From the NCBI RefSeq assembly GCF_003151135.1, contig NZ_QEQK01000019.1:1-64000 (forward strand): a DNA stretch of 64,000 nucleotides, read 5' to 3'. The position numbers and the translations under genes are program-made. Positions 10,207 through 36,225 of this stretch are shown piece after piece (positions within the stretch are counted from its first letter, which is position 1; every line of letters begins with the position of its first letter). The DNA is from Abyssibacter profundi. GTDB taxonomy: Bacteria > Pseudomonadota > Gammaproteobacteria > Nevskiales > OUC007. The notes below the pieces were generated by a model. It did no database searches. It saw only the letters and a list, made by a program, of their open reading frames with translations, and was not told the origin of the DNA.

Positions 10207-10208
10207 TC

Positions 10209-16257: not shown

Positions 16258-17571
16258 ATGACGATAGAGCGAGCAGCGGTACAGCAGACGGTTATTGCAG
16301 TGGTGGAAGAGCTGCTGGATGCCATTGACTCGGAGTACGAGGAGGCGGTCTCCGACGCGACCTGGCTGATTGCCGATGGAGGCTTTTCATCCATCGACTT
16401 CGTCCAGATGACGGTGATGATCGAGGAGCAGCTGGGCAGCAAAATCGGTTTTCAGGACATGCTGATGCAACAGGGTCAGTATGTGGATGACCTGACCGTC
16501 GGCCAGGTGGTCGACTTCACGGTCGATCGGCTGACCCATCCGCAGGCCGCGCAGGCAGCAGCGCCTGTTGTGGCCCCAGCGGCTACTCCGGTCGATGTGA
16601 CCGGCCCCCGTGTGACGGAAGAGGACGTGGCCGCATTCTCGCGCCTGATCAAACCGCGGCGGGTGCTCCCTGCCACCGGCGCGAAGAACAAACGGGCCGT
16701 GTTTATTCTGTCGCCGCCCCGGTCCGGTTCGACGCTGCTCCGGGTGATGCTGGCCGGCAACCCGGCGCTGTTTGCGCCACCCGAGCTGCATCTGCTGTCT
16801 TACGCGACCATGAACGAGCGCCGCGAGGATCTCAGCAACGAGCACAGCGAACATTTGCTGGATGGCACCGTGCGCGCATTGATGCAGACGCGCGGTTGGA
16901 CCGGCGACCAGGCCCGCAGATTCATTGCCGATTGCGAAGACAGCGGCATGAGCACCCGTGAATTTTTCGGCGTGATCCAGGCCGAGCTGGGTGAGCGCTT
17001 GCTCGTGGATAAAACGCCGACCTATGCGTTTAGCGAAGACATTCTTCGACAGGCGGAAGCCTGCTTCGATGACGCGCTGTACATCCACCTCACCCGGCAC
17101 CCCTGCGGCATGATCCGCTCCTACGAGGAGTCGAATCTGACCCGCATGATGCCGCTGCTTATGAAGAACAGCGAGTTCTCCATGTCGGCCTTGGCCGAGA
17201 TGATCTGGCTGGTCAGCAATCGCAACATCCTGTCGTTCGGCGAGTCGGTGCCAGCCGAGCGCTGGTTCTCGGTGTCGTATGAGCAGGTGGTCAGCCAGCC
17301 TGAACCCAGCATGCGCCGGTTATGTCAGTTCCTGGACGTCGATTACCACCCCGACATGATCAACCCCTACAGCGACAGCAAGTCGCGCATGACCGATGGC
17401 GTGGACTCGGCCTCCAAGATGAGTGGCGATCTGAAGTTCCATCTTCATAGCCAGATCGACCCCAACGCCGCCACGCGCTGGCAGCAGTTCTGCTCTGAGG
17501 ACATGCTCGGTGCCCAGACCCTGGATCTGGTGGCGAATCTGGACAGCAGCCCGGCGAGCGTCCGGCTCTAG
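16258..17571 (+). CDS. Acyl carrier protein-sulfotransferase fusion protein
   Basis: A 437-residue two-domain protein. Residues about 1-85 form an ACP: ADGGFSSIDFVQMTVMIEEQ carries the Ser for phosphopantetheine, and the domain ends QYVDDLTVGQVVDFTVDRL. After an Ala/Pro linker, residues about 135-430 form a PAPS-dependent sulfotransferase. Its 5'-phosphosulfate loop is ILSPPRSGSTLLRVMLAGNP and its 3'-phosphate site is IHLTRHPCGMIRSYEES. The fusion implies sulfation of an acyl chain while it is bound to this ACP, as the CurM/Ols modules do before decarboxylation to a terminal alkene. Here the thioesterase is not fused; an alpha/beta hydrolase is encoded nearby on the other strand. The ATG at 16258 begins directly at the ACP. 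Domain calls are firm; the reaction is inference. Confidence 0.88.
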   Translation: MTIERAAVQQTVIAVVEELLDAIDSEYEEAVSDATWLIADGGFSSIDFVQMTVMIEEQLGSKIGFQDMLMQQGQYVDDLTVGQVVDFTVDRLTHPQAAQAAAPVVAPAATPVDVTGPRVTEEDVAAFSRLIKPRRVLPATGAKNKRAVFILSPPRSGSTLLRVMLAGNPALFAPPELHLLSYATMNERREDLSNEHSEHLLDGTVRALMQTRGWTGDQARRFIADCEDSGMSTREFFGVIQAELGERLLVDKTPTYAFSEDILRQAEACFDDALYIHLTRHPCGMIRSYEESNLTRMMPLLMKNSEFSMSALAEMIWLVSNRNILSFGESVPAERWFSVSYEQVVSQPEPSMRRLCQFLDVDYHPDMINPYSDSKSRMTDGVDSASKMSGDLKFHLHSQIDPNAATRWQQFCSEDMLGAQTLDLVANLDSSPASVRL

Positions 17572-17600
17572 ACGGGGCGGCCGGCACGCGCGACGCAGGC

Positions 17601-18353
17601 TTAGCGCGCGCTGTAGCCGCCGTCGACCATCATCAGCTCGCCCGTGACGAAGCTGGATTCGGGGGAGCATAGCCAACGTACTGCGTTGGCCACTTCCACC
17701 GCAGTCCCTGGCCTGCCAGCGGGGTGCAGCTTGATGAAAGCCTCAGCCTTGGCCCCTCCCGCCTGAACCGTGCGTGCGCCAAGCCCGGCGTCGATCAGGC
17801 CGGGACAGACCGCATTGCAGCGGATGCCCTGACCGGAGTAGGCAACCGCAATCGATTTGGTGAGTCCCGCAATGCCATGTTTGGTTGCGGTGTACGCGGC
17901 GCTGGCTCCGCCGTTTACGCCCAGGATGGAGCAATTGTTCACAATCGCACCACCACCGGATGCCAGCATCAGCCTGACGGCCTGTTTAAGGCAGTTGTAG
18001 GTGCCGTCCAGATTGACTCGCAGGCAGGCGTCCCAGATGGCATCGTCGGTCTCCAGCAGGGGCGTGCCGCCGCCACCGATCCCGGCATTAAGAAACGCGC
18101 AATCCAGGCGGCCGTGTCGTTTTCGAATGGCCTCGAACAGGGTGCCGACGGCGGCTCGATCTGCCACATCGGTCGCCTGAGCCCAGGCCCGTTGGTCATC
18201 CTGACAGCGCACCCGCAGGGCCTCGGCCGTGCGCTCGGCGGCGATTGCGTCCAGGTCGCTGACCACGACGGTGTCACCTGCATCAACGAACTGCTCTGCG
18301 GTCGCGGTGCCAATGCCACCGGCTGCGCCGGTGATCAAGACGATGCGGGACAT
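17601..18353 (-). CDS. Short-chain dehydrogenase/reductase (SDR)
   Basis: A 250-residue classical SDR with the cofactor motif TGAAGGIG (residues about 7-14), LNAGIG, catalytic Ser in NNCSILG and the YxxxK in AYTATKHG. It ends with the SSFVTGELMMVDGGYSAR tail common to FabG-like enzymes. An Asp follows beta-strand 2 (VSDLDA), which favours NAD(H). It is the last gene of the minus-strand biosynthetic run, two bases after the esterase stop. It may oxidise or reduce a hydroxy/keto-acyl intermediate or product. Confidence 0.85.
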   Translation of the reverse strand: MSRIVLITGAAGGIGTATAEQFVDAGDTVVVSDLDAIAAERTAEALRVRCQDDQRAWAQATDVADRAAVGTLFEAIRKRHGRLDCAFLNAGIGGGGTPLLETDDAIWDACLRVNLDGTYNCLKQAVRLMLASGGGAIVNNCSILGVNGGASAAYTATKHGIAGLTKSIAVAYSGQGIRCNAVCPGLIDAGLGARTVQAGGAKAEAFIKLHPAGRPGTAVEVANAVRWLCSPESSFVTGELMMVDGGYSAR

Positions 18354-18355
18354 GA

Positions 18356-19276
18356 TTACCGCCCGGCCTGATGCTGGAAAAAGCGCCAGATCTGCTCCGT
18401 GGCGTCGAAGCGCCCGGGGTTCGGCCCCAGCTTGCTGGCCAGAAACGTTTGACCCCCCGGCCATTGGTGCCCCGTGTCGGCGACGGTGCAGGCCAGAACC
18501 GGACGATTGCTGCTGCAGTTGCGGTACCGGCGACAGTCCGCGCCGCGCGTGGCCAGCGCATCCGATGTCTCGGCATCACATCCATTGCGACCCAGCAGTG
18601 CCTGCGTCATGTCACGTAGGGACGCGCGGTAGCTGCCATCGTATTCGCCGCCCAGCAACGGTATGCGAGGGTCGTCGGCTCCACGTATCAGTAGGGCTGG
18701 TACGGCGCTGGGTCGCGGGCACCGTTCCAGCATCAAGGGGCCGGCAACCGGGGCGATGGCGTCGAAGACATCATCGCGTTCGCAGACAATGCGATGCAGC
18801 AGCATGGCGCCGTTGGAAAATCCGGTGCCATAGGTCTGGTCGTTAGCGATGCAGGGGGCCGCTTCCAGCGTGTTCGTTAGCTGTGCGATGAAGCCCACAT
18901 CATCGAATTGCTGGCGGGCCGGGCGGCCACAGCAGCTTCCGGCATTCCAGGCGCGCCAAATGCCATTGGGCAGTGCCAGCGCGAAGCGTTCGCTGCGCGC
19001 CAGCGCCATCAGCCCACTTTGCTCGCCGAAGCCTTCGCCCGTTCCCCATCCGCCATGCAGCCCAACGACCAGCGGTACGGGTCGATCGGCGTCGGCGCCA
19101 GCGGGCATGTAGAGCAGGTAGTGTCGGCTGCGGCCATCATGCTCAAGGCTGAGCGACTGCAACCCGCTTTCACAGGCGACGGTCTCGGCCGCGATCGCGC
19201 CCGAGGGCTGTGCGCCCAGACAAGCCGCAAGTCCTGTCAGCGCTGACAGCAGTGCCAGCCGACGTATCAGGCGCAT
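18356..19276 (-). CDS. Exported esterase of the PHB depolymerase/LpqC family
   Basis: A 306-residue alpha/beta hydrolase with an export segment and lipobox-like LTGLAACLG. The fold starts RSRHYLLYMPAGAD...LVVGLHGGWGTG and carries the nucleophile in GTGFSNGAML, an Asp in IRGADDPRIPL and the His in VADTGHQWPGG. Members (Esterase_PHB, feruloyl-esterase-like) cleave short-chain esters outside the cytoplasm. Its stop region adjoins the SDR start, and its start overlaps the preceding hydrolase gene by about 10 bases, so it belongs to the same transcript. A role in processing an exported lipid or polyester product is plausible but unproven. Confidence 0.82.
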   Translation of the reverse strand: MRLIRRLALLSALTGLAACLGAQPSGAIAAETVACESGLQSLSLEHDGRSRHYLLYMPAGADADRPVPLVVGLHGGWGTGEGFGEQSGLMALARSERFALALPNGIWRAWNAGSCCGRPARQQFDDVGFIAQLTNTLEAAPCIANDQTYGTGFSNGAMLLHRIVCERDDVFDAIAPVAGPLMLERCPRPSAVPALLIRGADDPRIPLLGGEYDGSYRASLRDMTQALLGRNGCDAETSDALATRGADCRRYRNCSSNRPVLACTVADTGHQWPGGQTFLASKLGPNPGRFDATEQIWRFFQHQAGR

Positions 19277-20178
19277 GCCGCGGCTGGCCGTGGGGGTGCC
19301 GCCCGGTGCCGGGTCGGTGGTTCAACAGCAACGCCTAGCAGTGGCGCCAGCGCGTTGAGTACGACCCGGGGCGCGCGTGCTGGGAAGAAATGGCCTGCAT
19401 TCGGGACGGTGACATAGCGCGCAGCCGGCAACAGCTCATGCAGGCGCTCACCGCTGGGACGAACCCGCGAGTGCTCGCCATACATCAGCAGCACGGGCAT
19501 CGAGAGCCCGGCGATGGCTTCAGGTGCAGCGCCGTCGGTGGAGACGAATTCCTCGCGGGCTGTTGTCTCCCGCAGCAGGCGCAGCCAGTGCCGGGCATCG
19601 CGTCCATTGCCGCGGCGATCGGCGAAGGGAACGAAATCGTTGGTCACGCGGCTGTGGATACCGGCGACACGACGCTCGGCCACGGTCTCCAGGAACCGGA
19701 TGCCGATCTGCTGCTCGGCTGCCCAGTCGATCTCGGTGACGTCCCCGATCAATTCCTGCTCGAACGGCGTCAGGTGGGCGCAGTCTGCCAGTCGTAATGT
19801 CGGCTGCAGGCAATTGATCTTGGCGTCCAGCAGCGCAAGCTTGGAGACGCGGTGGGGATAGCGCACCGCGAACTCCAATGCCACCGCGCCCCCGAAGCTG
19901 TGCGCAACGATCGGTGCCTGGTCAATGCCCAGGTGATCCATGAGTGCCAGCAGATCGTCGGCCTGTTGGCCGGCGCTGTAGCCGGATGGGGGCGTTGCGC
20001 TATAGCCGTGGCCCCGGAGGTCGTACAGCGTGAGACGAAATCGGTCGCGCAGCATGGGGGCGAGGCCGGTAAACCAGAACGCACGATTGGCGGCTAGACC
20101 GTGGACCATGATCAGGTCTGGGCCTTCGCCAAACTGCTGGTAGGCAATGCGAGTACCGTTTGTTTCGAGGCTGGCCAT
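19267..20178 (-). CDS. Alpha/beta-fold hydrolase, candidate trans thioesterase
   Basis: A 303-residue cytoplasmic hydrolase: HGLAANRAFW oxyanion loop, LYDLRGHGYS, nucleophile in IVAHSFGGAVALEFA and His in VPNAGHFFPARAP. The usual Asp after strand 7 is not obvious: the loop reads LLMYGEHSRV, with Glu early and Ser at the typical Asp position, while an Asp follows strand 6 (LALLDAKIN). An acid after strand 6 is reported for the CurM thioesterase, which is notable given the ACP-sulfotransferase nearby, but I cannot establish equivalence by eye. It lies 16 bases after the discrete ACP gene. The C-terminal tail is Pro/Arg/Ala-rich. Confidence 0.82.
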   Translation of the reverse strand: MASLETNGTRIAYQQFGEGPDLIMVHGLAANRAFWFTGLAPMLRDRFRLTLYDLRGHGYSATPPSGYSAGQQADDLLALMDHLGIDQAPIVAHSFGGAVALEFAVRYPHRVSKLALLDAKINCLQPTLRLADCAHLTPFEQELIGDVTEIDWAAEQQIGIRFLETVAERRVAGIHSRVTNDFVPFADRRGNGRDARHWLRLLRETTAREEFVSTDGAAPEAIAGLSMPVLLMYGEHSRVRPSGERLHELLPAARYVTVPNAGHFFPARAPRVVLNALAPLLGVAVEPPTRHRAAPPRPAAACA

Positions 20179-20194
20179 AGCGAGCGTTCCCGGG

Positions 20195-20503
20195 TCAGGT
20201 GGCTACAAAGTCGACCAGTTGGCCGACACTTAAGTCTTCGACGTAGCGTCCGTTGTGCATCAGTAGCTTCTCGAACGGCGCGTCCTGCTGGCCGAGCGCT
20301 TCCTCGATGGCCACGACCAGTTGGATGATGTCGATGGATTCGAATCCGAGGTCGGACAGCAACTGGGTCTGGCGAGAGATGTCGCCGTCGAAGTCGGTGT
20401 CCATGTCCTGCAAAAAATCTTCGAGGATGGAGACGATGACGCCGTACAGCGCGTCTGCGTCCTGTGGCTCGCCCGATGGTGGCTGTGCAACGGCCTGGTG
20501 CAT
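20195..20503 (-). CDS. Discrete acyl carrier protein
   Basis: A 102-residue ACP with the phosphopantetheine Ser in LLSDLGFESIDIIQLVVAIE. It ends NGRYVEDLSVGQLVDFVAT. That ending and the GFESID context closely match the ACP domain of the sulfotransferase fusion (QYVDDLTVGQVVDF, GFSSID), and differ from the DSIKR-type ACPs of the megasynthase. It probably hands chains between synthase, sulfotransferase and hydrolase. A strong AGGAGGA lies just upstream of its ATG, and the gene sits 62 bases after megasynthase protein 2. Confidence 0.88.
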   Translation of the reverse strand: MHQAVAQPPSGEPQDADALYGVIVSILEDFLQDMDTDFDGDISRQTQLLSDLGFESIDIIQLVVAIEEALGQQDAPFEKLLMHNGRYVEDLSVGQLVDFVAT

Positions 20504-20565
20504 GCTGTCCTCCTGTGCGCACGCCCGGATCTGGGCGCTGTGCTTGTTGTTGTCATGGTCTGTCG

Positions 20566-23500
20566 TTATGCCGGCGCGAAAGTCGGTGTAGGCAGGGGCG
20601 GCCGGTTTGTGCTGCTGCGGTCCGCCGCCAGGCAGATGGCCAGCACTGCCGTGGTGTCTTCGAAGTACAGGGTGACGTCGTGGCGTACAGACCCATGCGT
20701 CACGGCCGCGCGACTGGGGTGACCGCCGCGTCGGTCAATGGCGATCAATTCACAGTCCCAATCGCGGGGGCGGCCTTCGAGGCCTGTGCCCACAGACTTG
20801 GCGGCGGCCTCTTTGGCTGCCCAGATCGCCACGGCAATACGTGGCTGGTCGCTGACGGGTGCGTCGTGGATGCTGCGCGCTTCGCGCTGGGTCATCGCGC
20901 CCCGGATCAATTCCTCCACCCGGACCTGGCCGATGCGCTGGTAGTCGATCCCCACCGCCACTTCGGCAGCCGTGGCGATGGCGTGACGGCGGCTATGCGC
21001 CAACGAGATATGGGGCGTGCCAACGGGTTGAAGCGCCGCGCAGTGGACTGATGGCGCACCCAACTCGTCGGTCAGAATCTCAACATCGGCCGGTGCCAGG
21101 TGCAGGCCGTGTCGCTGTCTTGCCCATTCCCGGACGGCATCCTTAACGGCGATACGGCCCATCAGCCATTCCTCGCGGCGCGGGCCGGTAACCGGCAGGT
21201 TGTAGAACGTCGCGCGTTCATGGCGAGAGAGCGCCATGTGGGCCAGCATGCGCTTCCAGATTCCCCAACCCTGATCGAGAAAGCCCTCTTCGAACGGCAC
21301 CAAGCGCCGGGTCACAATGCCATCGCCGCGTCCGGCCTCGTGCTCGACGGAGATGTATTCCGATTGCGGACGCAGCCGGTAGTCGTAGTAACGGTCAGGG
21401 ACCGAGAACTTGCGGTCTTCCCAATGCTCGCAACGCATCAACAACTGCCCGTCGGGGGCGATGAGATCGAAGGCAGCCTCAAGACGCTGTGGGTCGGTGA
21501 GCGCCAGGTCGCCGCGACACACCACCTGAGTACCCGACGGCGGCGGGGCGGCATAGGGCGTAAAACGCCCCAGGCGGAACGGAAAGCAGTTGAAGCCCCA
21601 GCCGTGTTTTTCGGTCAGCCAGTAGCCTGCCAGTTGCCCGGCGGCGTCCAGTAGGGCGGGGTCAAGCTGAAACTGCGGGGTTTGCGTAAACGCGAAGTAG
21701 TCGTGCGTCGGTAGCACCAGCATGTCGGCCTCGATGGCCTCGTCGGCCCAGCGGCGCAGGTGACGGACACCTTGCAGGCGCGGTCCGTGGAACATGCCGT
21801 GGGCATAGAGTTCTCCGTCCGGATTGCTGCGTGCGCTAAAGGCTTGCGCGGCTGTCCAGGCGCGTGGTGTCGGAGCGGGTTGCCAGTTGGTGCCCAGGTG
21901 GACGATGCCCTCGAACACCAGAACCTGTCCGGTGGGGCGGTCGGGTGCATCCAGGAACAGGCGGACCCGGACGGTGTTCGGCCCCTGCCGCTCGGCCTCG
22001 ATGTTCAGGGTGAGGGTGCCGTCATCCAGCGCCAACCAGCGATGCCCCCGAACCTCTTCCATCGCCACGACTCGGCCGCCGGCCAGCCGGACCGCTGCCT
22101 CGGCCAGAATCTCCATGCTGAACGTGAAGGGCATGACTGGCAGGGGCAGCAGACTGGGGTCGACAGCTGACGGTTCCGAACCGATGGTGTGGTCCATCAG
22201 AAACGGGTCGTTCTCCAGCGTGTACGTCCGCTGGCTCAGCAGTCGCTGATCGCTGCATTCGATGAGTTCGCCCAGCATCGGAAATGCGGCGCGATCGAAC
22301 TGGGGCGCCTGCGCCGTGGCGGCGGCAGGCGCGGCCGCGGGCGGATTGGACCGACCCATTGCAACGCTTGTGTCGGTCGGTGCAACCGGGACGGATGCGG
22401 GCTCGACGCCAAACACCCGGGCCTGTGATTGCAGGAACGACTGCATGAGGTCGAAGTGACTCTGCAGGGCTTGCAGCCTGGCATCCGCAGCCGCTGGCGC
22501 CGGCTCGGTGGGCGCCAGCGTGGCGTCAGCGGGTGCGGCATTCGCCGTGGCGGGAATCGGTTGCCTGCTGGCGTCATCCAAGGGGGCAGCGGGTGTGGGG
22601 TTGCCGTCGGCGGCCGCCACGGGGCGGCGTTCGCTGAGCGGAATCACCTTGTCGACGCTGGGCAATGCATCGGGCGGCAGGTCCGTTGAGCGTCGGTCTA
22701 GCCGTTTGGCCGGCGCCCAGTCCTCCGGCAGCTTGAGCGCGGGCAGATGCAGGTTGAGCGATGGCTTGGGCTTGGCCGGGGCTGGAACCGTGTCCAGATC
22801 CATGTCGGGAATGTCCCGGTGGCGATAAAGCGCGTCGAGCTGAATCGGTACGCCTTGGGCAAAGAGCGTGGCCAGCAGGGTTTGGAACTGCTTCATGCCG
22901 CCACGCCGGCGCGAGTCGCAGGACACCGCAACACTGGGGTGACGCTTGCCGAGAATGTCTCCGACGAACGACGTCAGATTGGCGCTGGGGCCGACCTCGA
23001 CGAAGACACCGACGCCGTCATCCGCCAGGCGCTGAACGGTGTCTGAAAAGCGCACTGTCGTCGCCCACTGGGCGCAGGCCAGATCGCGGATGGCGTCGGG
23101 GTCTTCCGGGAACGGCGCGGCCGTGGCGCAGCTGTAGACCGTGGCGATGCCAGGCCCCATGTCGGTGTCGGCGTAGAACTGCCGAAAGGCCCGGGCAACG
23201 GGCTCAAACCGTTCGGTGTGATAGGCGCGTCCGAACGGCAGCATGGCGCAGACCGCGCCGGCATTGGTCAGTGCGGTCGAGGCTTCTTCGACCACGCTGC
23301 GTTGCCCGTACAGCACCACCTGATTCGGGCAGTTATCCATGGCCACGATCAGGGCATCGCCAAAGGTCTCCAGCACCTCTGCGCGACGTTGCGCATTCAT
23401 GGCCCCAACGGTGAGCAGAGCGCCTGACTCGATTTCGCCCTTGCGATCGACATCCTGGTAGATCGCGTTCATGCGGCGAATGGCATCGGCCAGGTCGATG

Positions 23501-25605
23501 CGCGAGGCGGCGCGGAGCATCTTCGAGGCCACCAGTGCGGTGTTTTCGCCCGTGGAATGACCCAGCATCACGTCGGGTTGGATGCCCAGGTCGCTCAGCA
23601 GGCTGTACAGCGCCATGCTGGCGGTAAACACCGTTTCCGAGGCCAGATCCATGTCGTAGATCCGGGCCTCCAGCTCGCGGCGGGCGAACCCGGGCAGACC
23701 GGTCGGTACCGGATAAATGACCTCGCTGGGTTTGATGTCCCGATGATCCGAGGTGGCATCAATGAAATCGAACCAGTCCCGAATCTGCGGGAAATGCATG
23801 GCCAGTTCAGCCAGCATGTTGGTGTATTGCGCGCCTTCGCCTGGAAACAGAAAGGCGAGCTTGCCGGGCGCATCACCCTGACCGTATTGCACGCCTTGCC
23901 GGGTCTTGAAGGGCTGGCCGGCCGGTAGCTTGTCCAGGGCGATCTGAAGGCGCTCGATCAGCTCTTCACGGCTGGCCGCGACAATGGCGAGGCGGTGCTC
24001 GCCCTGGCTGGGTGCGGTGGCGCGCGCAATGGTGGGAAGCGTGAGTGTGGACTCGCCTTCGACACGCAGCTTGAGCTTGCGTGCCGCTTCCACCAGTGCC
24101 GGGTTGCTGGGCGCCGCCAGCACGACCAACTCGGTTGCGGACGCGTGCAGCGCCGTAGCGCGAGGCCTGGTCGCGCGCCCCGCACCCGTGTGGGTGTCGG
24201 TGGGGACGTACTCTTCCAGAATCGCGTGTGCGTTCACACCGCCAAAGCCGAATGAGTTCACACCCGCGCGACGTGGATGGGCTGCACCATGCACCCAGGG
24301 ACGCGCCACGTTGTTGATGTAGAACGGTGTTTCTTCCAGGTGCAGCGCCGGATTGACCTCGTCACAAAGCGTGGGCGGCAAGACCTTGTGGTGGAGTGCC
24401 ATCGCCGTCTTGATCATGGCTGCGGCCCCGGCGGCGGGGATGCAGTGGCTGATCATCGATTTGACCGAGCCGATACCGGTGCGGGGCAGGTCGGCCTCGG
24501 CACTGCGGGCACCGAACACCGCGCCCAGCGACTGGATTTCGGTCTTGTCACCCAGCGCGATGCCCGTGCCGTGGGCTTCGATTAGACCCACGGTAGACGG
24601 GTCGATATCGCAGGCAGCGTAGGCGCGTTGCAGGGCCAGCACCTCACCTTCGAGCCGGGGCGCCAGCAGGCCCTTGGCCTTGCCGTCGGATGAGGTGCCC
24701 AGGCCGCGAACAACCGAGTAAATCCGGTCGTTGTCGCGCTCGGCGTCGGATAAGCGCTTGAGCACCAGCATGCCGGCACCTTCACCCAACAGGGTGCCGG
24801 AGGCGTTGACATCGAATGGCCGGATATTGCCGCGGGTCAGGGCGCCGAGCTGACAGAAGATCATCATCAACTGTGGCGGCGTGTGGGCCTGGCAACCGCC
24901 CGTCAACACCATGTCGCAGCGGCCGGAAAACAGTTCACGGCAGGCCGATTCGATGGCGATGAGCGATGACGCGCAGGCGGCATCGAGGATGTAGTTCGGA
25001 CCCATCAAATCCAGGCGATTGGCAATAATGCCCGTGGTGACATTCGGCACCAGGCCGGGCGACATCTCCGTATTGAAGGCAGGCAGTTGCTTCTTAAGGC
25101 CTGCGCGCAGGTCGGCAATGTCCGATTCGGCCAGGTCAGGTCGTAGCTGGCGTACGACGGCTAGGGTCTGGTCGACCATCATTCCGTGCTGCATCAGCGT
25201 GGTGTAGCCACGGTTGATGTATGTGCCGCGACCCAGGACGATGCCGGCCTTCTCCCGATTGAAGCTGCGGTCGATGTAGTCCGCATCACGCAGGGCGTCG
25301 CGGGCCAGTCGCAGCGCCAGATAGTGGTCCGGCTCCCCGCCATCGACCGCTGCCGGCATGATCCCGAACTCCACCGGGTTGAACTCGGCCAGGTCGTGCA
25401 GGAAGCCGCCCTTCTTGGTGTAGATGCGGTCGTTTTCGCGGGAGTCGGCGTCGTAGTAGGGGCCTAGCCATTCCTCATCGGCTTCGCCGACCGCGTCCAC
25501 GCCGTCGACGATGTTCTGCCAGTACTGGCGCAGGTCGCGGGCGCCGGAAAAACAGCCGGACAAGCCGACGATGGCAATGGGTTCGGGGAAACGGTCTGCA
25601 GACAT
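20566..25605 (-). CDS. Pfa-like megasynthase protein 2: KS-AT-DH-phosphopantetheinyl transferase
   Basis: About 1679 residues. A ketosynthase (about 5-460) has the Cys in DAACASS (about 210), His in EAHGTG and GSVKSMISHCIPAAG. An acyltransferase (about 585-900) has GHSTGE (about 682). After a Pro/Ala-rich linker comes a double-hotdog dehydratase (about 1095-1400) with His in LMDHTIG and Asp in LDPALLDAAGQ. A C-terminal Sfp-type phosphopantetheinyl transferase (about 1440-1650) carries AVGIDYQRI and WAAKEAAAKSVG. It recalls PfaC with PfaB and PfaE functions merged, but has no visible chain-length-factor partner KS. The upstream gene's TGA overlaps a GTG at 25617 (GTGA); the ATG at 25605 is my choice, so coupling is likely either way. 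Confidence 0.88.
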   Translation of the reverse strand: MSADRFPEPIAIVGLSGCFSGARDLRQYWQNIVDGVDAVGEADEEWLGPYYDADSRENDRIYTKKGGFLHDLAEFNPVEFGIMPAAVDGGEPDHYLALRLARDALRDADYIDRSFNREKAGIVLGRGTYINRGYTTLMQHGMMVDQTLAVVRQLRPDLAESDIADLRAGLKKQLPAFNTEMSPGLVPNVTTGIIANRLDLMGPNYILDAACASSLIAIESACRELFSGRCDMVLTGGCQAHTPPQLMMIFCQLGALTRGNIRPFDVNASGTLLGEGAGMLVLKRLSDAERDNDRIYSVVRGLGTSSDGKAKGLLAPRLEGEVLALQRAYAACDIDPSTVGLIEAHGTGIALGDKTEIQSLGAVFGARSAEADLPRTGIGSVKSMISHCIPAAGAAAMIKTAMALHHKVLPPTLCDEVNPALHLEETPFYINNVARPWVHGAAHPRRAGVNSFGFGGVNAHAILEEYVPTDTHTGAGRATRPRATALHASATELVVLAAPSNPALVEAARKLKLRVEGESTLTLPTIARATAPSQGEHRLAIVAASREELIERLQIALDKLPAGQPFKTRQGVQYGQGDAPGKLAFLFPGEGAQYTNMLAELAMHFPQIRDWFDFIDATSDHRDIKPSEVIYPVPTGLPGFARRELEARIYDMDLASETVFTASMALYSLLSDLGIQPDVMLGHSTGENTALVASKMLRAASRIDLADAIRRMNAIYQDVDRKGEIESGALLTVGAMNAQRRAEVLETFGDALIVAMDNCPNQVVLYGQRSVVEEASTALTNAGAVCAMLPFGRAYHTERFEPVARAFRQFYADTDMGPGIATVYSCATAAPFPEDPDAIRDLACAQWATTVRFSDTVQRLADDGVGVFVEVGPSANLTSFVGDILGKRHPSVAVSCDSRRRGGMKQFQTLLATLFAQGVPIQLDALYRHRDIPDMDLDTVPAPAKPKPSLNLHLPALKLPEDWAPAKRLDRRSTDLPPDALPSVDKVIPLSERRPVAAADGNPTPAAPLDDASRQPIPATANAAPADATLAPTEPAPAAADARLQALQSHFDLMQSFLQSQARVFGVEPASVPVAPTDTSVAMGRSNPPAAAPAAATAQAPQFDRAAFPMLGELIECSDQRLLSQRTYTLENDPFLMDHTIGSEPSAVDPSLLPLPVMPFTFSMEILAEAAVRLAGGRVVAMEEVRGHRWLALDDGTLTLNIEAERQGPNTVRVRLFLDAPDRPTGQVLVFEGIVHLGTNWQPAPTPRAWTAAQAFSARSNPDGELYAHGMFHGPRLQGVRHLRRWADEAIEADMLVLPTHDYFAFTQTPQFQLDPALLDAAGQLAGYWLTEKHGWGFNCFPFRLGRFTPYAAPPPSGTQVVCRGDLALTDPQRLEAAFDLIAPDGQLLMRCEHWEDRKFSVPDRYYDYRLRPQSEYISVEHEAGRGDGIVTRRLVPFEEGFLDQGWGIWKRMLAHMALSRHERATFYNLPVTGPRREEWLMGRIAVKDAVREWARQRHGLHLAPADVEILTDELGAPSVHCAALQPVGTPHISLAHSRRHAIATAAEVAVGIDYQRIGQVRVEELIRGAMTQREARSIHDAPVSDQPRIAVAIWAAKEAAAKSVGTGLEGRPRDWDCELIAIDRRGGHPSRAAVTHGSVRHDVTLYFEDTTAVLAICLAADRSSTNRPPLPTPTFAPA

Positions 25606-25613
25606 GGAAGCAC

Positions 25614-28600: not shown

Positions 28601-31600
28601 CGACAATGGACAGCAGGCTGGTCTTGAGATCAATGGGCTCTGCGGCCTGTACGGAGGCAGATGACGGTGCCGTCGATTCGACGGCGGTGTCGGCCGTCAC
28701 CAATGGGGTGGCCAAGTCGATCAGGGCCTGCAGGCTGCGGGCCTGGGTGAAGGCCTCCATGGTCTGCTGCATGGCCTCCGAGGCCTCGGCAGGCAGTTGT
28801 TGTTGAAACTGGCCGAGAATCTCCACGCGTTTAATGGAGTCGATGCCCAGCTCGGCTTCCAGATCCTGGTCCAGGCCCAGCATGTCCTCCGGATAGCCGG
28901 TGAGCTCGGCAACAATGCCGAGCAGGGCGGCACGCAGGTCCAGGGCCGGGGCGGCGGCCGGTGCACGGGCGGTGGCCGCGGCTGTAGTCGCAAGACCCGG
29001 CAGGGCTGCCAGCTCGGTCTGAATGGCGTGCAGTGTCCGGGCCTGGGTAAAGCGCTCCATTCCGGACTGCATGGCCGCTGCGGCTTCTGCAGGTAGCGCC
29101 TGCTGGACAGCACCCAGCACCTCGACGCGTTTGATGGAGTCGATGCCCAGCTCGGCCTCCATGTCCTGATCCAGGCCTAGCATGTCCTCGGGGTAACCCG
29201 TGAGTTCGGCCACGGTGGCCAGCAGCAGCGCCTGCGTGTCCAGCGCTTGGCCGGGGGCGACCGCAGCCTCAGCTGGGCGGGGTTCAGCAGCCGGGGTCCC
29301 GGCGGTTTGCTCCAGCTTCGGGCTCAGGCGATCCAGAATGTCTCGCAGGCAGCGGCTTTGGGTGTAGTTCTCCATGTCATCGGCCATGGAGGCTCCGAGC
29401 GCGTCGGGCAGTGACTTCTGCAATGCCCCGAGGATTTCCACGCGTTTGATGGAGTCGACACCCAGCTCGGCTTCGAGATCCTGATCCAGGTCGAGCATGT
29501 CGTCGGGGTAACCGGTGCGCTCCGAGACGATGCCAAGCAGCAGCCGCTGCAGCGCCGCGCTGTCGAAAGCGGCGGCCGCGTTCGCAGGTGCAGCAGGTGG
29601 TGGGGTGTCCTGAGCGGGTGTTTCGGCCGCCGGCGGTGTGACTTGCAAGGGCGCCAGCGCGGGCGCCACCGGCAGGGTCGGGGGTTGCACGGGCAGGGAT
29701 GCTGCGGCTTGTTCCGGTGCAACGGCCGCCGTGTTACCACCGGCCAGATACTGCTGGATCACGCGTTCCTGCAAGGAGAGGAATTCGCGCATCGTCTGCT
29801 GGTAGGCCGCCAGCGCCTCACTGCTGCCGGCTGTCTGGACGGGCCGGGTCGCCGCCGAAATAGGCTGCGCCGCCTGGGGCACGGCCTGCGTGGTAGCCGG
29901 CTGCGGCGGGGTCGGGCGGCTGGCGGCTTCGCGCAAGGCCGCCTGCTCCAACTGGGCCCGCTCGGCGTCTTCCCGTTGCAACGGTGGTTGTTTGCCCATG
30001 CGCAGAATCGGATCGTCCATAGGCCGGGCGCAGCCGCCGGAGAGATACCAGGTCGTTGGTGACAGCGCCGCTGGCTTGACCAGCTCGGCCAGACGGTCAA
30101 GCTGGATGCGACGGACAGGGCGTCCATCAAACAGTCGCGACAGGCGCATCGAAACGCCGGCTGTCGTCAATTGCCCTAGCGCTGTCAGCAGCCCTCGCAG
30201 GCCACCGCCGTTGGCATCGAGTGCCACGGTCGTGACGGCCTGGTCGGCCAGCGTCTGGCGAATCATGTTTGAGCAGATCGACTTGGGGCCAATCTCCAGG
30301 AACAGCTGGATGCCGGATGCGTGCATGGCCTGGATTTCGGACACGAACTCCACCGGACTGAGCATGTGCCGCTCCAGCTGGGCGTACATGGCCGCCGGAG
30401 TGTCGGGATAGGGTGCGCCGGTGGTGTTGCTGTACACCGGGAACTGCGCTGGGTTCAGGGTGGCCTTGCGAATCGCCTTGGACAACGGTTTTTGTGCCCC
30501 GGCAACCAGCTCGGTGTGGAACGCGCCGGAAACCGGCAACACGCGCGTGGACAGGCCTTGCTCATTCAGGGCGGTGGCCGCGCGGTCGATGTCGGTCTTG
30601 GGTCCTGAGATGACCGTTTGGGTCGGTGCATTGTGATTGGCCACCGACAGCGTCGGGAAGGCCTTTAATGCGGCTGTGACCTGTTCGCGCTCCGCCTGCA
30701 CGGCGGCCATGCCGCCCGGTGTGCCGGTTGCCGATGCCTCGGCCATGACGCGGCCGCGCAGTGCCGACAAGCGCAGAAAATCCGCGTCATCCAGCACACC
30801 CGCGGCGGCCAGCGCCGCGTACTCACCGTAGCTATGGCCGGCGGCGGCCTGCGGCTGGATGCCCAGGCGGCGGACCAGGCGCGTCATGCCCAGTTCCAAC
30901 GCGCCGATGGCCGGTTGGGCCACGCGGGTGTCGGTGAGTGCGGCGGCCTGGGCCTTGCGGCTGGCATCGTCGAAGGCGGCCTGGGGCCACATCAACTTGT
31001 CGAGCAGGGCGTCGAGCTCGTCACCCAGCACCGAATGGGCCCGGGTGATGCCGTCGCGAATATCGGGCAGGAAGAGCGCGGCCTCGCGCCCCATGTTGAC
31101 GTACTGCGCACCCTGGCCGGGGTAGACAAAGCCGACCTGTGGGGCCTGGGCAGGCACCTGGGTGCTGACGACAACATGCGGTGGCAGCGGGCGTTTGCTA
31201 TCTCCCTGCAGTGACTCCAGTGCGACTTCCAGCCCTTGGACGAGCCGGTCGTAGTCACCGGCGACAATGCTGGCGCAAGCCGAGGGGAATTCGTTGCGCT
31301 CCATGGCCGCGTCGGCCTGCATGGCCAGCGAATAGGCCAGGTCGCGCAACGGCAGGTTCGTACCCTGGCGCAGGGCGGTGATCAGCCGCCCCAGTGCCTG
31401 CGACAGCTCATCGGCGTTGGCAGCGCGTAGGACGAAGAGTTCTTCGGTCCAGTCTTGGCCACCGACCGGGGCTGCTTGCGTATCGAGTTCGCCGTCGTAG
31501 CCTTCGAGCACGGCGTGGAAATTCGTGCCGCCGAAGCCAAAGGCCGAAACGCCGGCGCGACGGCGCTCGCCCGGCCGGGTCAGCCAGGGCTTGGGTTCGT

Positions 31601-34600
31601 CCAGCAGATAGACCGGTGATTCGGGGTCGGCGATGGTGTCGATCGGGTCGTCGACGCCGACATGGGCCGGCAGGATCTTATGATGCAGCGACAGGGCAAT
31701 CTTGATCAGCCCGGTGACGCCCGCGGCCGCTTTGGTGTGACCGACGATGGTTTTGACCGATCCCAGTGCCACCGTCTGGGCGGGGGCGCCCTCGGCCCGC
31801 AGCGTCCGGGTGATGGTCTCGGCCTCGGCCTTGTCGCCGACCGGCGTTCCGGTGCCATGCGCCTCGATCAGGCCCAGGTCGGTGGGTCGGAATCCGGCCT
31901 TTGCGTAGGCCCGGTCCAGGGCGCGCATCTGGCCTTCGGGTCGCGGCGCGGTCATGCCCAGCGCCTTGCCATCCGAGGATCCGGCAACCGACTTGATCAC
32001 CGCGTAAATGCGATCACCATCGCGTTCGGCATCGGCCAGGCGCTTCATGACCAGCACCGCCGCACCTTCTGAAATCACGATTCCGTTGGCTGACTTGTCG
32101 AAGCTGCGTGCCGTGCCTGTGGGTGACAAGGCCTGGGTCTTGGAGAAGCACAGATAGCCGAACGGGCCTTGCACCGTGTCCACGCCACCGGCCAGCGCAA
32201 CATTGGCGCGACCCGATTCCAGATCGTCTACCGCCAGGCTTACGGCAGCCAGCGATGAGGCGCAGGCGGCGTCGACCGTGAAATTGCGGCCGCCGAAGTC
32301 GAGGCGATTGGCCACGCGACCGGCCGCGACGTTTTGCAGCACACCGGCAAAGGATTCCTGCGTCCATTCCGGCAGCCGGTCCCAGACGGCGTCAGAGGGT
32401 GCGTCGACAAAGCGGGGAATCTCTGCACGCACGCCGTATTGCATCCCCAGGTCACCGACGCCGCCGCCAGCCCCGAGCATGATGCTGGTGTTCTCCCGAT
32501 CGAAATCACCATCGGCATAGCCCGCATCGCTGAGCGCGCGATGGGTGGCTTCGAGACAGAGCAGCTGCATGGGGTCGATGGACTTCATCGACTTTGGCGG
32601 GATGCCAAAGGTCAGCGGATCAAACGCGATTTCGTCCAGAAAACCGCCCCACTTGGAATACACCTTGTCGCGGGCGGCTTTGTCCGGGTCGTAGTACAGC
32701 TCCCAGTCCCAGCGCGACTTGGGCACGACGTCCGTGACCTTGCGTTTGCGCAGCACGATGTTCCAGAAGTCATTCGGATCATCTGCCTTGGGTAGCAGCG
32801 TGCCGATGCCGACGATGGCGATATCGGACGGTCGGGCCTGCGCGCGGCGTTCCTGGCGGGTCTGCCGCCATTCGGTTAAACGCGCCGTGGCCGCCGTGCT
32901 GACCGACTCATGCAGGGCTTCAATGGTCTGGACGCCGTCGGCCAAGGTGGCGACCTGGCCGATCATGTACATGCCATCGCGATGTTGATCGTCATCGCTA
33001 ATCGAGACGATCTCGCCCGAGGCATCGCGATTCACGCCTTTGCTAGCAATACGCAGGCGGCCCAGGTTCAGGTCTTCGAGCACTTCGGAGATCTCACTGG
33101 CCGGCGCGCCCTTGGCGATCAGGCTGCGCCGGGTGTCGAAAAACTCGCGTGCAAAGCGGGTATCGGCGCAGCGGCTGGCGTGCCCCGGGCCGGTGGCCAG
33201 GCTGACCGTGCGCTGGCAGGCCACGGCTTCGGATTGGAAGCCCGACACGATGGCGCCGGCCTGGACAATGTCCTGGGTGAATAGATACGCCGAGCCCATC
33301 AGCACGCCGACCTTCATGCCGCGTTCAACCAGTGGCGCCGCCATGGCAGCGACCATGGCGCTGGACAAGGCATCGTGGATGCCGCCGGCAAACAGCACGT
33401 GGATGTCGCCCGCCTCGGCGGGTTTGCTGTGCTGAAGCAGCACGTCGATCATCTGCTCCCAAAGCGGGAAGCTCGCAATCGGCCCGATGTGGCCGCCACA
33501 TTCCCGGCCTTCAAAGACGAAGCGACGGGCGCCTTGCTCCAGGTACATCTTCAGCAGTGCTGGCGCCGGCGCGTGGATATACGCAGGAATGCCTTCGGAT
33601 TCGAAATGTGCGGCCTGGTCGGGGCGTCCGCCGGCGATCAGGGCATAACTGGGCTTGCAGGCCAGCACGGCCTTGATTTGTTCCTCGCGCAATTGTTGGG
33701 GCACGAAACCCAACAGGCCGATGCCCCAGGGGCGATCGCCGACAGCAGCCCGTGTGTCCTCGAGTAGCTTGGCGACTTGATCGCCTCGCATCAGGGCCAG
33801 GGCCAGCATGGGCAGCCCCCCGCCTTCGGCGACCCGGCGAGCGAAATCCGCCGAATCCGATACGCGGGTCATCGGGCCCTGCACCACGGGGAACCGCGTG
33901 CCATGGGACTGCGCCATTGCCGCGTCGGGTGCGAGCGCCGCCTGCGCAGCGGCCTGTTCGATATTGCTTTGGGAGCGTTGCCGCAGCGCCTGGATGACGC
34001 GGCCGACCGTCCGTAGCGAGCGCAGGGTCGTGGCCACGCCAATGCCCTGGCCGATGGGCGCGAGTTGGTGCGGCTCATCCCAGCCCAACAGGGGGCGCAG
34101 TTTGGTGGACCAGCTCTGCTCGGCCCGGCTATCGGCTTCGGCGGCCTGCTCCAGCGATTCGACATCCGTCCATAGGGTGTGGCGTGGCGGGCCGTAGACC
34201 CGGGCGGTTGCGCTGAGGTGTTCTCCGAGCAGGCGGGTTTCCCCACCGTTCAGCCGGGCCAGGGCTGCCTGACGATCGGCATCCAGCGGCGACTCGCGCA
34301 GCAACAGGCACTGGTCGTCCAGAACAATGCCGGCAGCGCCCGCCAGTCGGCAGGCCGCAGCGGTGTTGAGTCCGACCCCGCCGCGAACGAACAGCGGTTT
34401 ACTGGTCTGTTTGAGCGCTTTTTGCAGCAGGATGTATGCGGTGTCGTCACCGACGAATCCCGGTGCTTCGTGTCCCTTCAGGACGTAACCATCGGGCTCG
34501 CTGGTGCAGGTGTTCAGCTGCTCGGCGTGGGTGACCTCTAGCCAGACCTGTTCGGCACCGGCGCTGCGTAGCTGCACCAATGATTGGCAGGTGCGTTGGA

Positions 34601-34877
34601 TATCCCCGTGGATGAGCACAATGGTGAGCGAGCGGGGCGCCGCCTGCTGCATCAGGGCGACGGCCTCGTCTGCCTGCTCGGGCAGGATTCTCAGGCCCAG
34701 GGGGCCGTCCGTTGCATCCAACGCGCGTGCCAGTTCGCGGGCGACGAGATCGTGGTCGCTACAGAATTCGCAGTCGATGAGACCGATGCCTCCGGCCCGA
34801 GCGGCCGCCACGGCGATGGCAGGATGATCGAACCCGGCCGGGCTGAGGCAAAGAATGTCGAATGGGGTACGGGTCAT
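25614..34877 (-). CDS. Pfa-like megasynthase protein 1: flavin oxidoreductase-KS-AT-5xACP-KR-DH
   Basis: About 3087 residues. Residues 1-230 look like a degenerate, and about 310-640 an intact, nitronate-monooxygenase/PfaD-type FMN barrel (FPVVQGPMTRV, FEGRECGGHIGP), presumably the enoyl reductase. The KS (about 680-1110) has DAACASS, EAHGTG and VGHTKAAAG. The AT (about 1250-1560) has AAGHSYGEY. After a Gln/Pro/Ala linker come five ACPs (about 1770-2240), each with a DSIKR core. The KR (about 2440-2760) has VVTGGARGI, ASVAGR and YAAAN. The C-terminal DH (about 2800-3080) has GDHRLDDTPVLPATG and FDPGLLD. All catalytic residues I can check are present. The plan is that of PfaA fused to PfaD. 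ATG 34877 follows a strong AGGAGGT. The product is unknown. Confidence 0.9.
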   Translation of the reverse strand: MTRTPFDILCLSPAGFDHPAIAVAAARAGGIGLIDCEFCSDHDLVARELARALDATDGPLGLRILPEQADEAVALMQQAAPRSLTIVLIHGDIQRTCQSLVQLRSAGAEQVWLEVTHAEQLNTCTSEPDGYVLKGHEAPGFVGDDTAYILLQKALKQTSKPLFVRGGVGLNTAAACRLAGAAGIVLDDQCLLLRESPLDADRQAALARLNGGETRLLGEHLSATARVYGPPRHTLWTDVESLEQAAEADSRAEQSWSTKLRPLLGWDEPHQLAPIGQGIGVATTLRSLRTVGRVIQALRQRSQSNIEQAAAQAALAPDAAMAQSHGTRFPVVQGPMTRVSDSADFARRVAEGGGLPMLALALMRGDQVAKLLEDTRAAVGDRPWGIGLLGFVPQQLREEQIKAVLACKPSYALIAGGRPDQAAHFESEGIPAYIHAPAPALLKMYLEQGARRFVFEGRECGGHIGPIASFPLWEQMIDVLLQHSKPAEAGDIHVLFAGGIHDALSSAMVAAMAAPLVERGMKVGVLMGSAYLFTQDIVQAGAIVSGFQSEAVACQRTVSLATGPGHASRCADTRFAREFFDTRRSLIAKGAPASEISEVLEDLNLGRLRIASKGVNRDASGEIVSISDDDQHRDGMYMIGQVATLADGVQTIEALHESVSTAATARLTEWRQTRQERRAQARPSDIAIVGIGTLLPKADDPNDFWNIVLRKRKVTDVVPKSRWDWELYYDPDKAARDKVYSKWGGFLDEIAFDPLTFGIPPKSMKSIDPMQLLCLEATHRALSDAGYADGDFDRENTSIMLGAGGGVGDLGMQYGVRAEIPRFVDAPSDAVWDRLPEWTQESFAGVLQNVAAGRVANRLDFGGRNFTVDAACASSLAAVSLAVDDLESGRANVALAGGVDTVQGPFGYLCFSKTQALSPTGTARSFDKSANGIVISEGAAVLVMKRLADAERDGDRIYAVIKSVAGSSDGKALGMTAPRPEGQMRALDRAYAKAGFRPTDLGLIEAHGTGTPVGDKAEAETITRTLRAEGAPAQTVALGSVKTIVGHTKAAAGVTGLIKIALSLHHKILPAHVGVDDPIDTIADPESPVYLLDEPKPWLTRPGERRRAGVSAFGFGGTNFHAVLEGYDGELDTQAAPVGGQDWTEELFVLRAANADELSQALGRLITALRQGTNLPLRDLAYSLAMQADAAMERNEFPSACASIVAGDYDRLVQGLEVALESLQGDSKRPLPPHVVVSTQVPAQAPQVGFVYPGQGAQYVNMGREAALFLPDIRDGITRAHSVLGDELDALLDKLMWPQAAFDDASRKAQAAALTDTRVAQPAIGALELGMTRLVRRLGIQPQAAAGHSYGEYAALAAAGVLDDADFLRLSALRGRVMAEASATGTPGGMAAVQAEREQVTAALKAFPTLSVANHNAPTQTVISGPKTDIDRAATALNEQGLSTRVLPVSGAFHTELVAGAQKPLSKAIRKATLNPAQFPVYSNTTGAPYPDTPAAMYAQLERHMLSPVEFVSEIQAMHASGIQLFLEIGPKSICSNMIRQTLADQAVTTVALDANGGGLRGLLTALGQLTTAGVSMRLSRLFDGRPVRRIQLDRLAELVKPAALSPTTWYLSGGCARPMDDPILRMGKQPPLQREDAERAQLEQAALREAASRPTPPQPATTQAVPQAAQPISAATRPVQTAGSSEALAAYQQTMREFLSLQERVIQQYLAGGNTAAVAPEQAAASLPVQPPTLPVAPALAPLQVTPPAAETPAQDTPPPAAPANAAAAFDSAALQRLLLGIVSERTGYPDDMLDLDQDLEAELGVDSIKRVEILGALQKSLPDALGASMADDMENYTQSRCLRDILDRLSPKLEQTAGTPAAEPRPAEAAVAPGQALDTQALLLATVAELTGYPEDMLGLDQDMEAELGIDSIKRVEVLGAVQQALPAEAAAAMQSGMERFTQARTLHAIQTELAALPGLATTAAATARAPAAAPALDLRAALLGIVAELTGYPEDMLGLDQDLEAELGIDSIKRVEILGQFQQQLPAEASEAMQQTMEAFTQARSLQALIDLATPLVTADTAVESTAPSSASVQAAEPIDLKTSLLSIVAELTGYPQDMLGLDQDLEAELGIDSIKRVEILGQLQQTLPDEAAAQMQADMERYTQARSLQAILDAAITLESGHVPSLAPAAATPAANEPTPDVSARLLAIVADRTGYPEDMLGLDQDLEAELGIDSIKRVEIIGALQEALPAALATGMADRMEVLTQARTLQMIIDLVSQDEARNSAMTPPSPAAAATAKAAEVATNTSAHPEADPEADPATDTAPIYAMTATATTAPGLPDALDGQLLVTGPDTELSQAIRNAAGDRGAQVIVNADEAGDQLRWVIDTSGCETEDERARAAFFDFVATLRRLEPRLDGLQVISLSQLGGRFGRDGQDAPASAIAGAANGLFNCLRKEYPGLIARAVDFETNAPFDAMASRALAEVASRDEAFEAGYQAGDRLDFGTLPAAAHSDSAPAVTPQADWVTVVTGGARGITAAIVQRLAVPGMRLVLLGRSPLPTEEAPALAGVADDALQAAVIDQARAAGTPLKPADVQRQVNRLLADREIRRNLQQLESTGAIVDYRRCDVGDGDRFGALIDQLYEEFGRIDAVLHGAGVIEDKLFRDKTDVSFQRVFDTKVSAALTLADKLRPDGLKLCVFFASVAGRYGNQGQGDYAAANETLTRLACQLDARWPEARVLSIAWGPWDAGMASEAVKAKFRQQGIIPIPLAAGCQRFMDLLAGRGTGCAEVIVGEGPWPAPQRPAQASESRAAGLPLLRDELRMGPGGSMTLDHQFTLDSDPYLGDHRLDDTPVLPATGALEWMAEFTAASWPDWTVIEVRDLRALAGVTLQGGERAVHIKARAAAHSDPGSQAIAVEIQDPARKQALYKATVILAPHLPEAPALDAPAALTGPAYDAATLYTEHLFHQARFQLVDAVKAVTQQGIDALARPAPVAEWLEQASGQWLFDPGLLDVGPQLAIVWARVNHDRTALPSRFGRVRRFGLGPIEGPVQVTWRMREAPHAAAVAYDVYFHDAQGQLRLACEDMEGTMTSALNRLTGAQQ
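28090..29580 (-). repeat. Five tandem ACP coding repeats in megasynthase protein 1
   Basis: Five units of about 300-320 bp each encode an ACP containing TGYPxDMLxLDQDxEAELG followed by (I/V)DSIKRVE. The DSIKR codons fall near 29450, 29130, 28825, 28520 and 28215. Nucleotide identity around the active Ser is very high between units, with divergent Ala/Pro-rich spacers, which points to duplication and homogenisation. Multiple ACPs in PUFA synthases raise output without changing the product. Confidence 0.9.
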
Positions 34878-35022
34878 CGTGGCGACCTCCTGTTGCAAGC
34901 CCCCCCGGGCTGGCAACGTGCTGAGTCAGAGAAAGAGAGGCGCCCACCGATGGACCGGGTCGGAGCCCGTCGGGCTGTCCGGTTGCGGTGGGCGGGATGA
35001 GTCATGGCCGGGGCGACGCGCA

Positions 35023-36198
35023 TCAAGCCGCCTGCTCGTTGGCCGGAATCGGATGGTTTCGCGGCATCATCTGGCGAAAATGCAGCGCAAAATCGCGTTG
35101 CCGCTGTCGCGTTTGCCGATCGGGAATGGCAAACCGGGGCAGGAGCAGGTCGCGGATGCGTTCGGCCACCTGCGCTGTTGCGGTGGCGAGATCGACGCCC
35201 GGCGCCAGCAGCTCGGCGAGGACGGGATCACGGCGGATCAGCGAATCGTCATCTCGTAGTGCCGCGCGGAAGGCACGGATAGCCTGCTCAAAAAAACCTT
35301 GCTGCGCATAGATCAGGCCTTGGCGTTGGAACACGGCATGCGCACGTGGATGCGTTTGCAGCAGGCCCAGCAGGGTTTGTTGTGCGGCTTGCAGCTCGCC
35401 CCTGGCGATCTGGGTATCGGCCAGGCCGTAGAGGGCGGGCTCCAGGCTGGGTTGATGCGTCAACGCCTGCTGGTAGGCCTCGCCCGCGTCGGCCTCTCGG
35501 CCAAGGCAACGCAGCGCATCACCTGCCAGAACATGAAGCCGGGCGGGTCGGGCTGCGCTGGCTGCCGCGGCCTGGAAGGTCTTGGCTGCGGCCTTATAAC
35601 GTCGATCGGCGGCCTGGACCCGACCCAGCCGCAGCCTTGCGATGAACGATTCCGGACGATCCTTGACCACAGCCTTGAGCAGGCGCAGGGCTTTGCGGAT
35701 CCGGCCGTCATCGACATAAATTTCGGCGAGCATGAGCCGTGCGGCGATGTGGCGGGGGCGTATTTCCAACACCTCGCTCAAGGCGGCCTCGGCCGCCTCG
35801 ACCTCGTCGTCTTCCAGCGCCAGCGCGGCGAGCATGAGCTGGCCGCCGGCGAGATTGGGGTCCATGTCCAGCGCCCGATCCACCTGACGGCGTGCACCGG
35901 CGTGGTCATCCTGTTCGAACTGGATGCGGCCGATTTGCAGCGGGGCAGGGGCCAGCCGGGGGTTGATCTCCAGCGCTCGCTCGCAGGCTTCCACCGCCTC
36001 GTCGTAGCGTTTGCCACGGGTGTAGATCATGCCCAGCAGCAACTGCCCGAACGCAAATCTCGGCTGCTCTGCCAGCCGGCTGCGCAGGATGGCCTCGGCC
36101 CGATCCAGCGAACCGGACCGGATATGTGCCGAGATTTCGCGCACGAGCATCACCGATGTGTCGTCGTCGGGCACGGACAGATCAGGCTCGGTTGGCAT
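35023..36198 (-). CDS. Tetratricopeptide-repeat protein
   Basis: About 391 residues, almost entirely TPR-like helices. Recurrent units carry the W/L-G-Y/F-A-P pattern, for example FAFGQLLLGMIYTRGKRYDEAVEACERALEINP, HVLAGDALRCLGREADAGEAYQQAL and VFQRQGLIYAQQGFFEQAIRAFRAAL (quoted in parts). There is no signal peptide, so it is probably a cytoplasmic scaffold. It reads in the same direction as the megasynthase and ends about 145 bases before it, so it may be the first gene of that operon. I choose the ATG at 36198; one at 36225 is also in frame. The function is otherwise unknown. Confidence 0.72.
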   Translation of the reverse strand: MPTEPDLSVPDDDTSVMLVREISAHIRSGSLDRAEAILRSRLAEQPRFAFGQLLLGMIYTRGKRYDEAVEACERALEINPRLAPAPLQIGRIQFEQDDHAGARRQVDRALDMDPNLAGGQLMLAALALEDDEVEAAEAALSEVLEIRPRHIAARLMLAEIYVDDGRIRKALRLLKAVVKDRPESFIARLRLGRVQAADRRYKAAAKTFQAAAASAARPARLHVLAGDALRCLGREADAGEAYQQALTHQPSLEPALYGLADTQIARGELQAAQQTLLGLLQTHPRAHAVFQRQGLIYAQQGFFEQAIRAFRAALRDDDSLIRRDPVLAELLAPGVDLATATAQVAERIRDLLLPRFAIPDRQTRQRQRDFALHFRQMMPRNHPIPANEQAA

Positions 36199-36225
36199 GG
36201 CGCACCACAGCTGGTGAGGGTGCAT

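Follow-up and report, generated by a model that had tools for sequence, protein, structure and literature searches.

The window analyzed here is a stretch of 64,000 nucleotides of contig 19 within the 3.7 Mb genome of Abyssibacter profundi. Two megasynthases, PksA and PksB, are encoded there together with a discrete ACP, an alpha/beta hydrolase, an exported esterase and an SDR oxidoreductase, and a fused ACP-sulfotransferase (ACP-ST) is transcribed convergently to the synthase genes (Table 1). Motif and profile checks recovered every one of these genes where an initial annotation had listed them. The gene set was syntenic in two other genomes of the genus, with identities mostly of 65-90%, and is therefore not a chance assembly. 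The TPR gene at the right edge was kept in the genus (62%) and was not found beside the synthase in five other loci searched, which makes its membership doubtful. An IS3-like transposase gene pair, recognized from sequence, lies to the left of the locus (window 9889-11024).

Table 1. Features of the synthase locus (window positions) and of the second module on contig 6 of the same genome
Feature	Position	Strand	Observations
ACP-ST (ACP-sulfotransferase), 458 aa	16195-17571	+	ACP Ser in GFSSID, then CurM/Ols-type PAPS sulfotransferase; PF13469 2.6e-28
SDR oxidoreductase	17601-18464	-	Pfam adh_short_C2 1.3e-55; TGAAGGIG and YTATK present
Exported esterase	18356-19276	-	lipobox LAAC; nucleophile GFSNG; PHA-depolymerase-type
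Alpha/beta hydrolase, candidate chain-releasing enzyme	19267-20178	-	S94, D118, H263 invariant
Discrete ACP, paralogue of the ACP of ACP-ST	20195-20503	-	41% identity
PksB, KS-AT-DH-PPTase, PfaBC-like with PPTase, 1683 aa	20566-25617	-	active-site motifs kept
PksA, two tandem flavin barrels (PfaD-like)-KS-AT-5xACP-KR-DH, PfaDA-like fusion, 3100 aa	25614-34916	-	
TPR protein, right edge, membership doubtful	35023-36225	-	genus-level neighbour
520-aa protein	G000:C6:211470-213038 (= L081:11570-13138)		found only in synthase genomes
Second PF13469 sulfotransferase	G000:C6:213065-213950		neighbour of the 520-aa protein

The two megasynthases and the accessory genes

The initial annotation had read PksA as a single flavin barrel followed by KS-AT-5xACP-KR-DH; the latter order held, and the N-terminus was found to contain two tandem barrels (window 32847-34916), at residues 33-241 (PA1024-like) and 342-540 (FabK-like). 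The first matched the nitronate monooxygenase PA1024 (1e-6), the second matched FabK-type reductases (1e-10), and the two barrels matched each other in a profile comparison (E=1e-4). PMC13311796 describes a heterodimer of ER domains in thraustochytrid PUFA synthases, of which the tandem barrels could be a one-chain version. PksA probably starts at an ATG some 13 codons downstream of the listed TTG start, and the SDR at an internal ATG at about residue 38.

Catalytic motifs were present in both megasynthases, including the KS Cys-His-His, AT Ser, ACP Ser, KR Tyr, DH Asp and PPTase motifs; the DH His was found in PksB by motif check and was read by eye in the translation of PksA. Five ELG[IV]DSIK motifs mark the five tandem ACPs of PksA, and both KS domains keep DAACAS. 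PksA scored 1357 against the PfaA family TIGR02813 (cut-off 1010). The features by which Pfa-type secondary lipid synthases are defined were all found, namely at least one KS, ACP and KR with a PfaA-related KS, tandem ACPs, and a PfaD-like flavin ER (FabK/NMO matches). The features of an EPA/DHA-type (Type A/B) Pfa synthase were absent: besides the two KS domains, the locus proteins contain no third KS-like domain that could be a chain length factor, and the genes are fused rather than five separate ones. The arrangement corresponds to Type M of Shulse and Allen, a fused PfaDA plus PfaBC-PPTase as worded in PMC13291983, and the PPTase motifs LGAP and ISLAH are those of the M-T group; this likeness is one of described architecture and PPTase motifs.

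Among the accessory proteins, the lipoprotein esterase scored 138 bits against NCBIfam NF050058, under the cut-off of 150. The catalytic triad of the alpha/beta hydrolase was intact and invariant across 14 homologous sequences, an alignment in which no invariant Arg was seen in the lid region. An AlphaFold model of this enzyme from a two-row alignment had a mean pLDDT of 49.5. In most of the loci read from family f2, a PF01663 phosphodiesterase-like protein, often with a hexapeptide acetyltransferase, lies between PksB and the ACP (e.g., L035:6905-9300); neither was found in that position in the genus of the window or in family f4.

The ACP-sulfotransferase protein and its distribution in the order

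The sulfotransferase domain of ACP-ST matched those of Ols (4gox, 1.6e-59) and CurM (4gbm, 1.2e-58). All five PAPS-site residues checked were kept, with a 5'-PSB loop PPRSGST, DKTP and RHPCGMIRS, and an APS kinase is present, so PAPS can be made. The best named matches of ACP-ST were from an Abyssibacter MAG (73%) and a Salinisphaerales MAG (71%). In the sulfotransferase tree, six ACP-ST proteins formed one clade inside the CurM/Ols clan. The carrier domain grouped elsewhere: in the ACP tree it fell with the discrete ACPs of the synthase system, apart from the carriers of other CurM-type sulfotransferases, at a modest support of 82/86 and with some rows present twice, duplicates that left the grouping unchanged. 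It was 38-49% identical to the discrete ACPs of the system, and a search with ACP-ST as query recovered discrete ACPs across the order. Judged by its sequence, the carrier of ACP-ST is a copy of the pathway's own discrete ACP.

We surveyed 85 genomes of the order, and PksB was found in 53, indicating that the synthase is conserved through much of it. ACP-ST was found in six genomes, all with PksB. Three belong to the genus of the window and carry ACP-ST beside the synthase or its accessory genes; in the other three (G006, G010, and G016, family f4), ACP-ST is on a different contig from PksB. The two PksB-free genomes of the same two families, G003 and G013, also lack ACP-ST. As plain statistics this co-occurrence is weak, with p=0.05 over the 85 genomes and p=0.04 over the eight genomes of the two families, phylogeny being ignored. 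ACP-ST is placed in the pathway chiefly by its carrier: a search of ten genomes with the discrete ACP returned only the ACP of ACP-ST in f4, only the discrete ACP in the two f2 genomes, and both in the genus of the window. By this pattern, ACP-ST seems to replace the carrier of the pathway or to duplicate it. Because ACP-ST occurs only in synthase genomes, is missing from their synthase-free sisters and supplies the only such ACP found in f4, it probably belongs to the synthase pathway and sulfates a carrier-bound chain.

It is unlikely, in our view, that ACP-ST is instead a carrier-sulfotransferase didomain protein of another pathway that stands next to the synthase by chance in this genus. 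The convergent orientation, the lack of linkage in the second family, the occurrence of stand-alone carrier-sulfotransferase proteins in NRPS loci, and co-occurrence statistics that rest on two families would all fit such a protein. They are to be set against the paralogy of its carrier with the discrete ACP of the system, its standing as the sole such ACP found in f4, its absence together with the synthase in G003 and G013, and the stretches compared around the unlinked f4 copies, where no domain of this synthase was nearby.

The combination of Pfa-type chain building with ACP-bound sulfation, which the initial annotation had put forward, emerges as the best reading from the sulfotransferase matches, the PAPS motifs and the restriction of ACP-ST to synthase genomes. 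The initial annotation had named, as evidence against this reading, homologous synthase loci consistently lacking both the sulfotransferase and the hydrolase, and this was found in part: 47 of the 53 homologous synthase genomes lack ACP-ST, and sulfation by ACP-ST is thus not needed for the core product. These 47 genomes retain the hydrolase and another, mostly degenerate, sulfotransferase.

The terminal olefin that was also suggested fared poorly. By that route, sulfation of a beta-hydroxyl by ACP-ST would be followed, as in CurM/Ols, by release of a 1-alkene, with the alpha/beta hydrolase serving in trans as the decarboxylating thioesterase. A sulfotransferase of the CurM/Ols clan, a KR, and a hydrolase with an intact triad three genes from ACP-ST are what such chemistry would use. 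However, ACP-ST ends with its sulfotransferase domain, with no thioesterase fused after it, and no FAAL domain was found in the locus proteins. The hydrolase, moreover, is conserved in genomes without ACP-ST, has no chain named CurM among its best 60 PDB matches and has no invariant lid-region Arg, and most of the closest sulfotransferases from outside these genomes belong to NRPS lines that have no thioesterase of this kind. We regard the olefin route as very improbable.

A second, often unlinked module

In relatives, a second module is found near the synthase, consisting of an outer-membrane efflux protein, an HlyD-like adaptor (N-terminal membrane part), a 520-aa protein and a second PF13469 sulfotransferase. 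In the genome of the window it lies on contig 6, at about 207727-213950; this position outside the window is why the second sulfotransferase was missed in the initial annotation. About 21 kb from the module, at G000:C6:182425-186083, a distant PF01663-like protein stands beside a PF00685 sulfotransferase and is apparently unrelated.

Of the 53 genomes with PksB, 51 encoded the 520-aa protein; the 32 genomes lacking PksB all lacked it as well (Fisher p=2e-21). Of the two genomes with PksB only, one is a contaminated assembly and the other has a distant paralogue as its sole PksB match. Synthase and 520-aa protein were on different contigs in 14 genomes, part of which may reflect assembly breaks as some contigs are short, and they were 1.57 Mb apart in G040. 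Taken together, the split genomes and the gap in G040 suggest that the link between synthase and second module is more than positional. The 520-aa protein is about 52% identical across families and had no relative in Pfam, NCBIfam or the PDB (profile search of the PDB). Outside the order, the second module accompanies the synthase in part (G392, G171, and G407).

The second sulfotransferase, a neighbour of the 520-aa protein in about 50 genomes (L125-L163 and others), was scored on five PAPS-site residues. All five were kept in the three genomes of the window's genus, in G075 and in the out-of-order loci. Forty-eight copies from f2 and f4 kept only 0 to 2 of the five: PRSG was changed to PFSG, PGAH, NSSV or similar strings, none retained the Lys of DKSP, and most had lost the Ser that follows RHP. 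Motif losses of this kind point to inactive enzymes in these 48 copies. Even so, the degenerate gene has stayed next to that of the 520-aa protein. In the genus of the window, the intact second sulfotransferase could itself sulfate the product. We tentatively raise the possibility of a lipid pathway spanning the order. In it, the PAPS sulfotransferase that originally served the export-linked module would persist in two families as a conserved dead enzyme, and a CurM-type sulfotransferase fused to the pathway's own carrier would have assumed sulfation in part of the order; the products would be sulfated secondary lipids of a new class.

The mature lipid class need not carry sulfate, as ACP-ST and an intact second sulfotransferase are both missing from most synthase genomes. 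This observation would suit a role of the sulfate as leaving group only, in which ACP-ST activates a hydroxyl for the subsequent formation of a double bond, ring or ester and no sulfate stays in the final lipid; the sulfotransferase has that role in CurM/Ols, where sulfation provides the leaving group (PMC3903477). We consider this quite unlikely for the present locus, given that DH domains in both megasynthases already permit dehydration and that ACP-ST has no associated candidate for an eliminating enzyme.

Proposed pathway and comparison with known systems

The reading that we favor, with somewhat better than even confidence, is that of a Type-M-like secondary lipid synthase with a lineage-specific sulfating branch, yielding a sulfated hydroxy-acyl lipid in the genus of the window and in f4. 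Gene content, intact motifs, the relatedness of the two ACPs and co-occurrence form its observed part, from which we infer the direction of chain transfer, the site of sulfation, release, export and the product. PksA and PksB would build a reduced or partly unsaturated acyl chain iteratively on the five ACPs of PksA, and the chain would pass to the small stand-alone ACP, a plausible acceptor. In the genus of the window and in f4, the fusion of a copy of this ACP to a CurM/Ols-type sulfotransferase suggests that the bound chain receives sulfate from PAPS on ACP-ST, most likely at the beta-hydroxyl that the KR leaves. The alpha/beta hydrolase would then release or transfer the chain as a sulfated hydroxy-acyl lipid, which the unlinked second module may finish or export.

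To our knowledge, most types of secondary lipid synthase have no known product. For one such type, the locus now defines a gene set that is widely conserved, and the sulfate (+80 Da, 34S or 35S label) offers a chemical handle for seeking the product of the synthase. If the proposal is true, iterative Pfa-type lipid synthesis joins curacin and the cyanobacterial olefins as a setting of carrier-bound sulfation. In addition, a sulfotransferase-like protein that is retained and co-inherited although its PAPS site has been lost clade-wide poses a testable puzzle in its own right.

Type M secondary lipid synthases, with fused pfaDA and pfaBC-PPTase genes, have been described from Renibacterium and Frankia (PMC3098273, PMC13291983), and the product of the Renibacterium synthase is unknown (PMC13291983). 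The present locus shares with them an ER fused to a PfaA-like protein, a KS-AT-DH protein with PPTase, tandem ACPs and the M-T PPTase motifs; it adds a discrete ACP, a hydrolase, a lipoprotein esterase, the co-conserved efflux/sulfotransferase module and, in this genus, ACP-ST. The string "sulf" is absent from the text of PMC13291983, and "sulfotransferase" from that of PMC3098273. The Ars fatty acid synthase of Azotobacter (Type P) is likewise a Pfa-type secondary lipid synthase with a PPTase of the same motif group (PMC3098273); by its description, it differs in handing a C22-26 chain to a type III PKS, none of which was seen in this locus.

With CurM (curacin) and Ols, ACP-ST shares a sulfotransferase homologous over its length, placed right after an ACP and with the same PAPS motifs. 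Of the features of their terminal-alkene modules, the PAPS sulfotransferase after an ACP was present, whereas the fused decarboxylating thioesterase and the FAAL (Ols only) were not. Furthermore, ACP-ST is a free-standing two-domain protein whose ACP is of other origin, and it lacks a KS-AT-KR on the same chain. CurM-type sulfotransferases also follow carriers in other Proteobacteria (L083-L089, L115-L118), some as stand-alone proteins of 430-444 aa, but there the carriers resemble peptidyl carriers or ACPs of modular PKS, and the surrounding genes are of NRPS or modular PKS kind rather than iterative Pfa-type: those of L083-L087 and L115-L118 follow NRPS-type carriers, and those of L088 and L089 follow PKS ACPs and occur with an ordinary-looking thioesterase. 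Stand-alone carrier-sulfotransferase proteins of about 435 aa were observed in L116, L117, and L118, from small (2 Mb) proteobacterial genomes with NRPS-like surroundings. In the open-licence literature we found no paper that joins a Pfa-type synthase with CurM/Ols chemistry. Fused pfaDA/pfaBC-PPTase synthases and CurM/Ols chemistry have each been described already.
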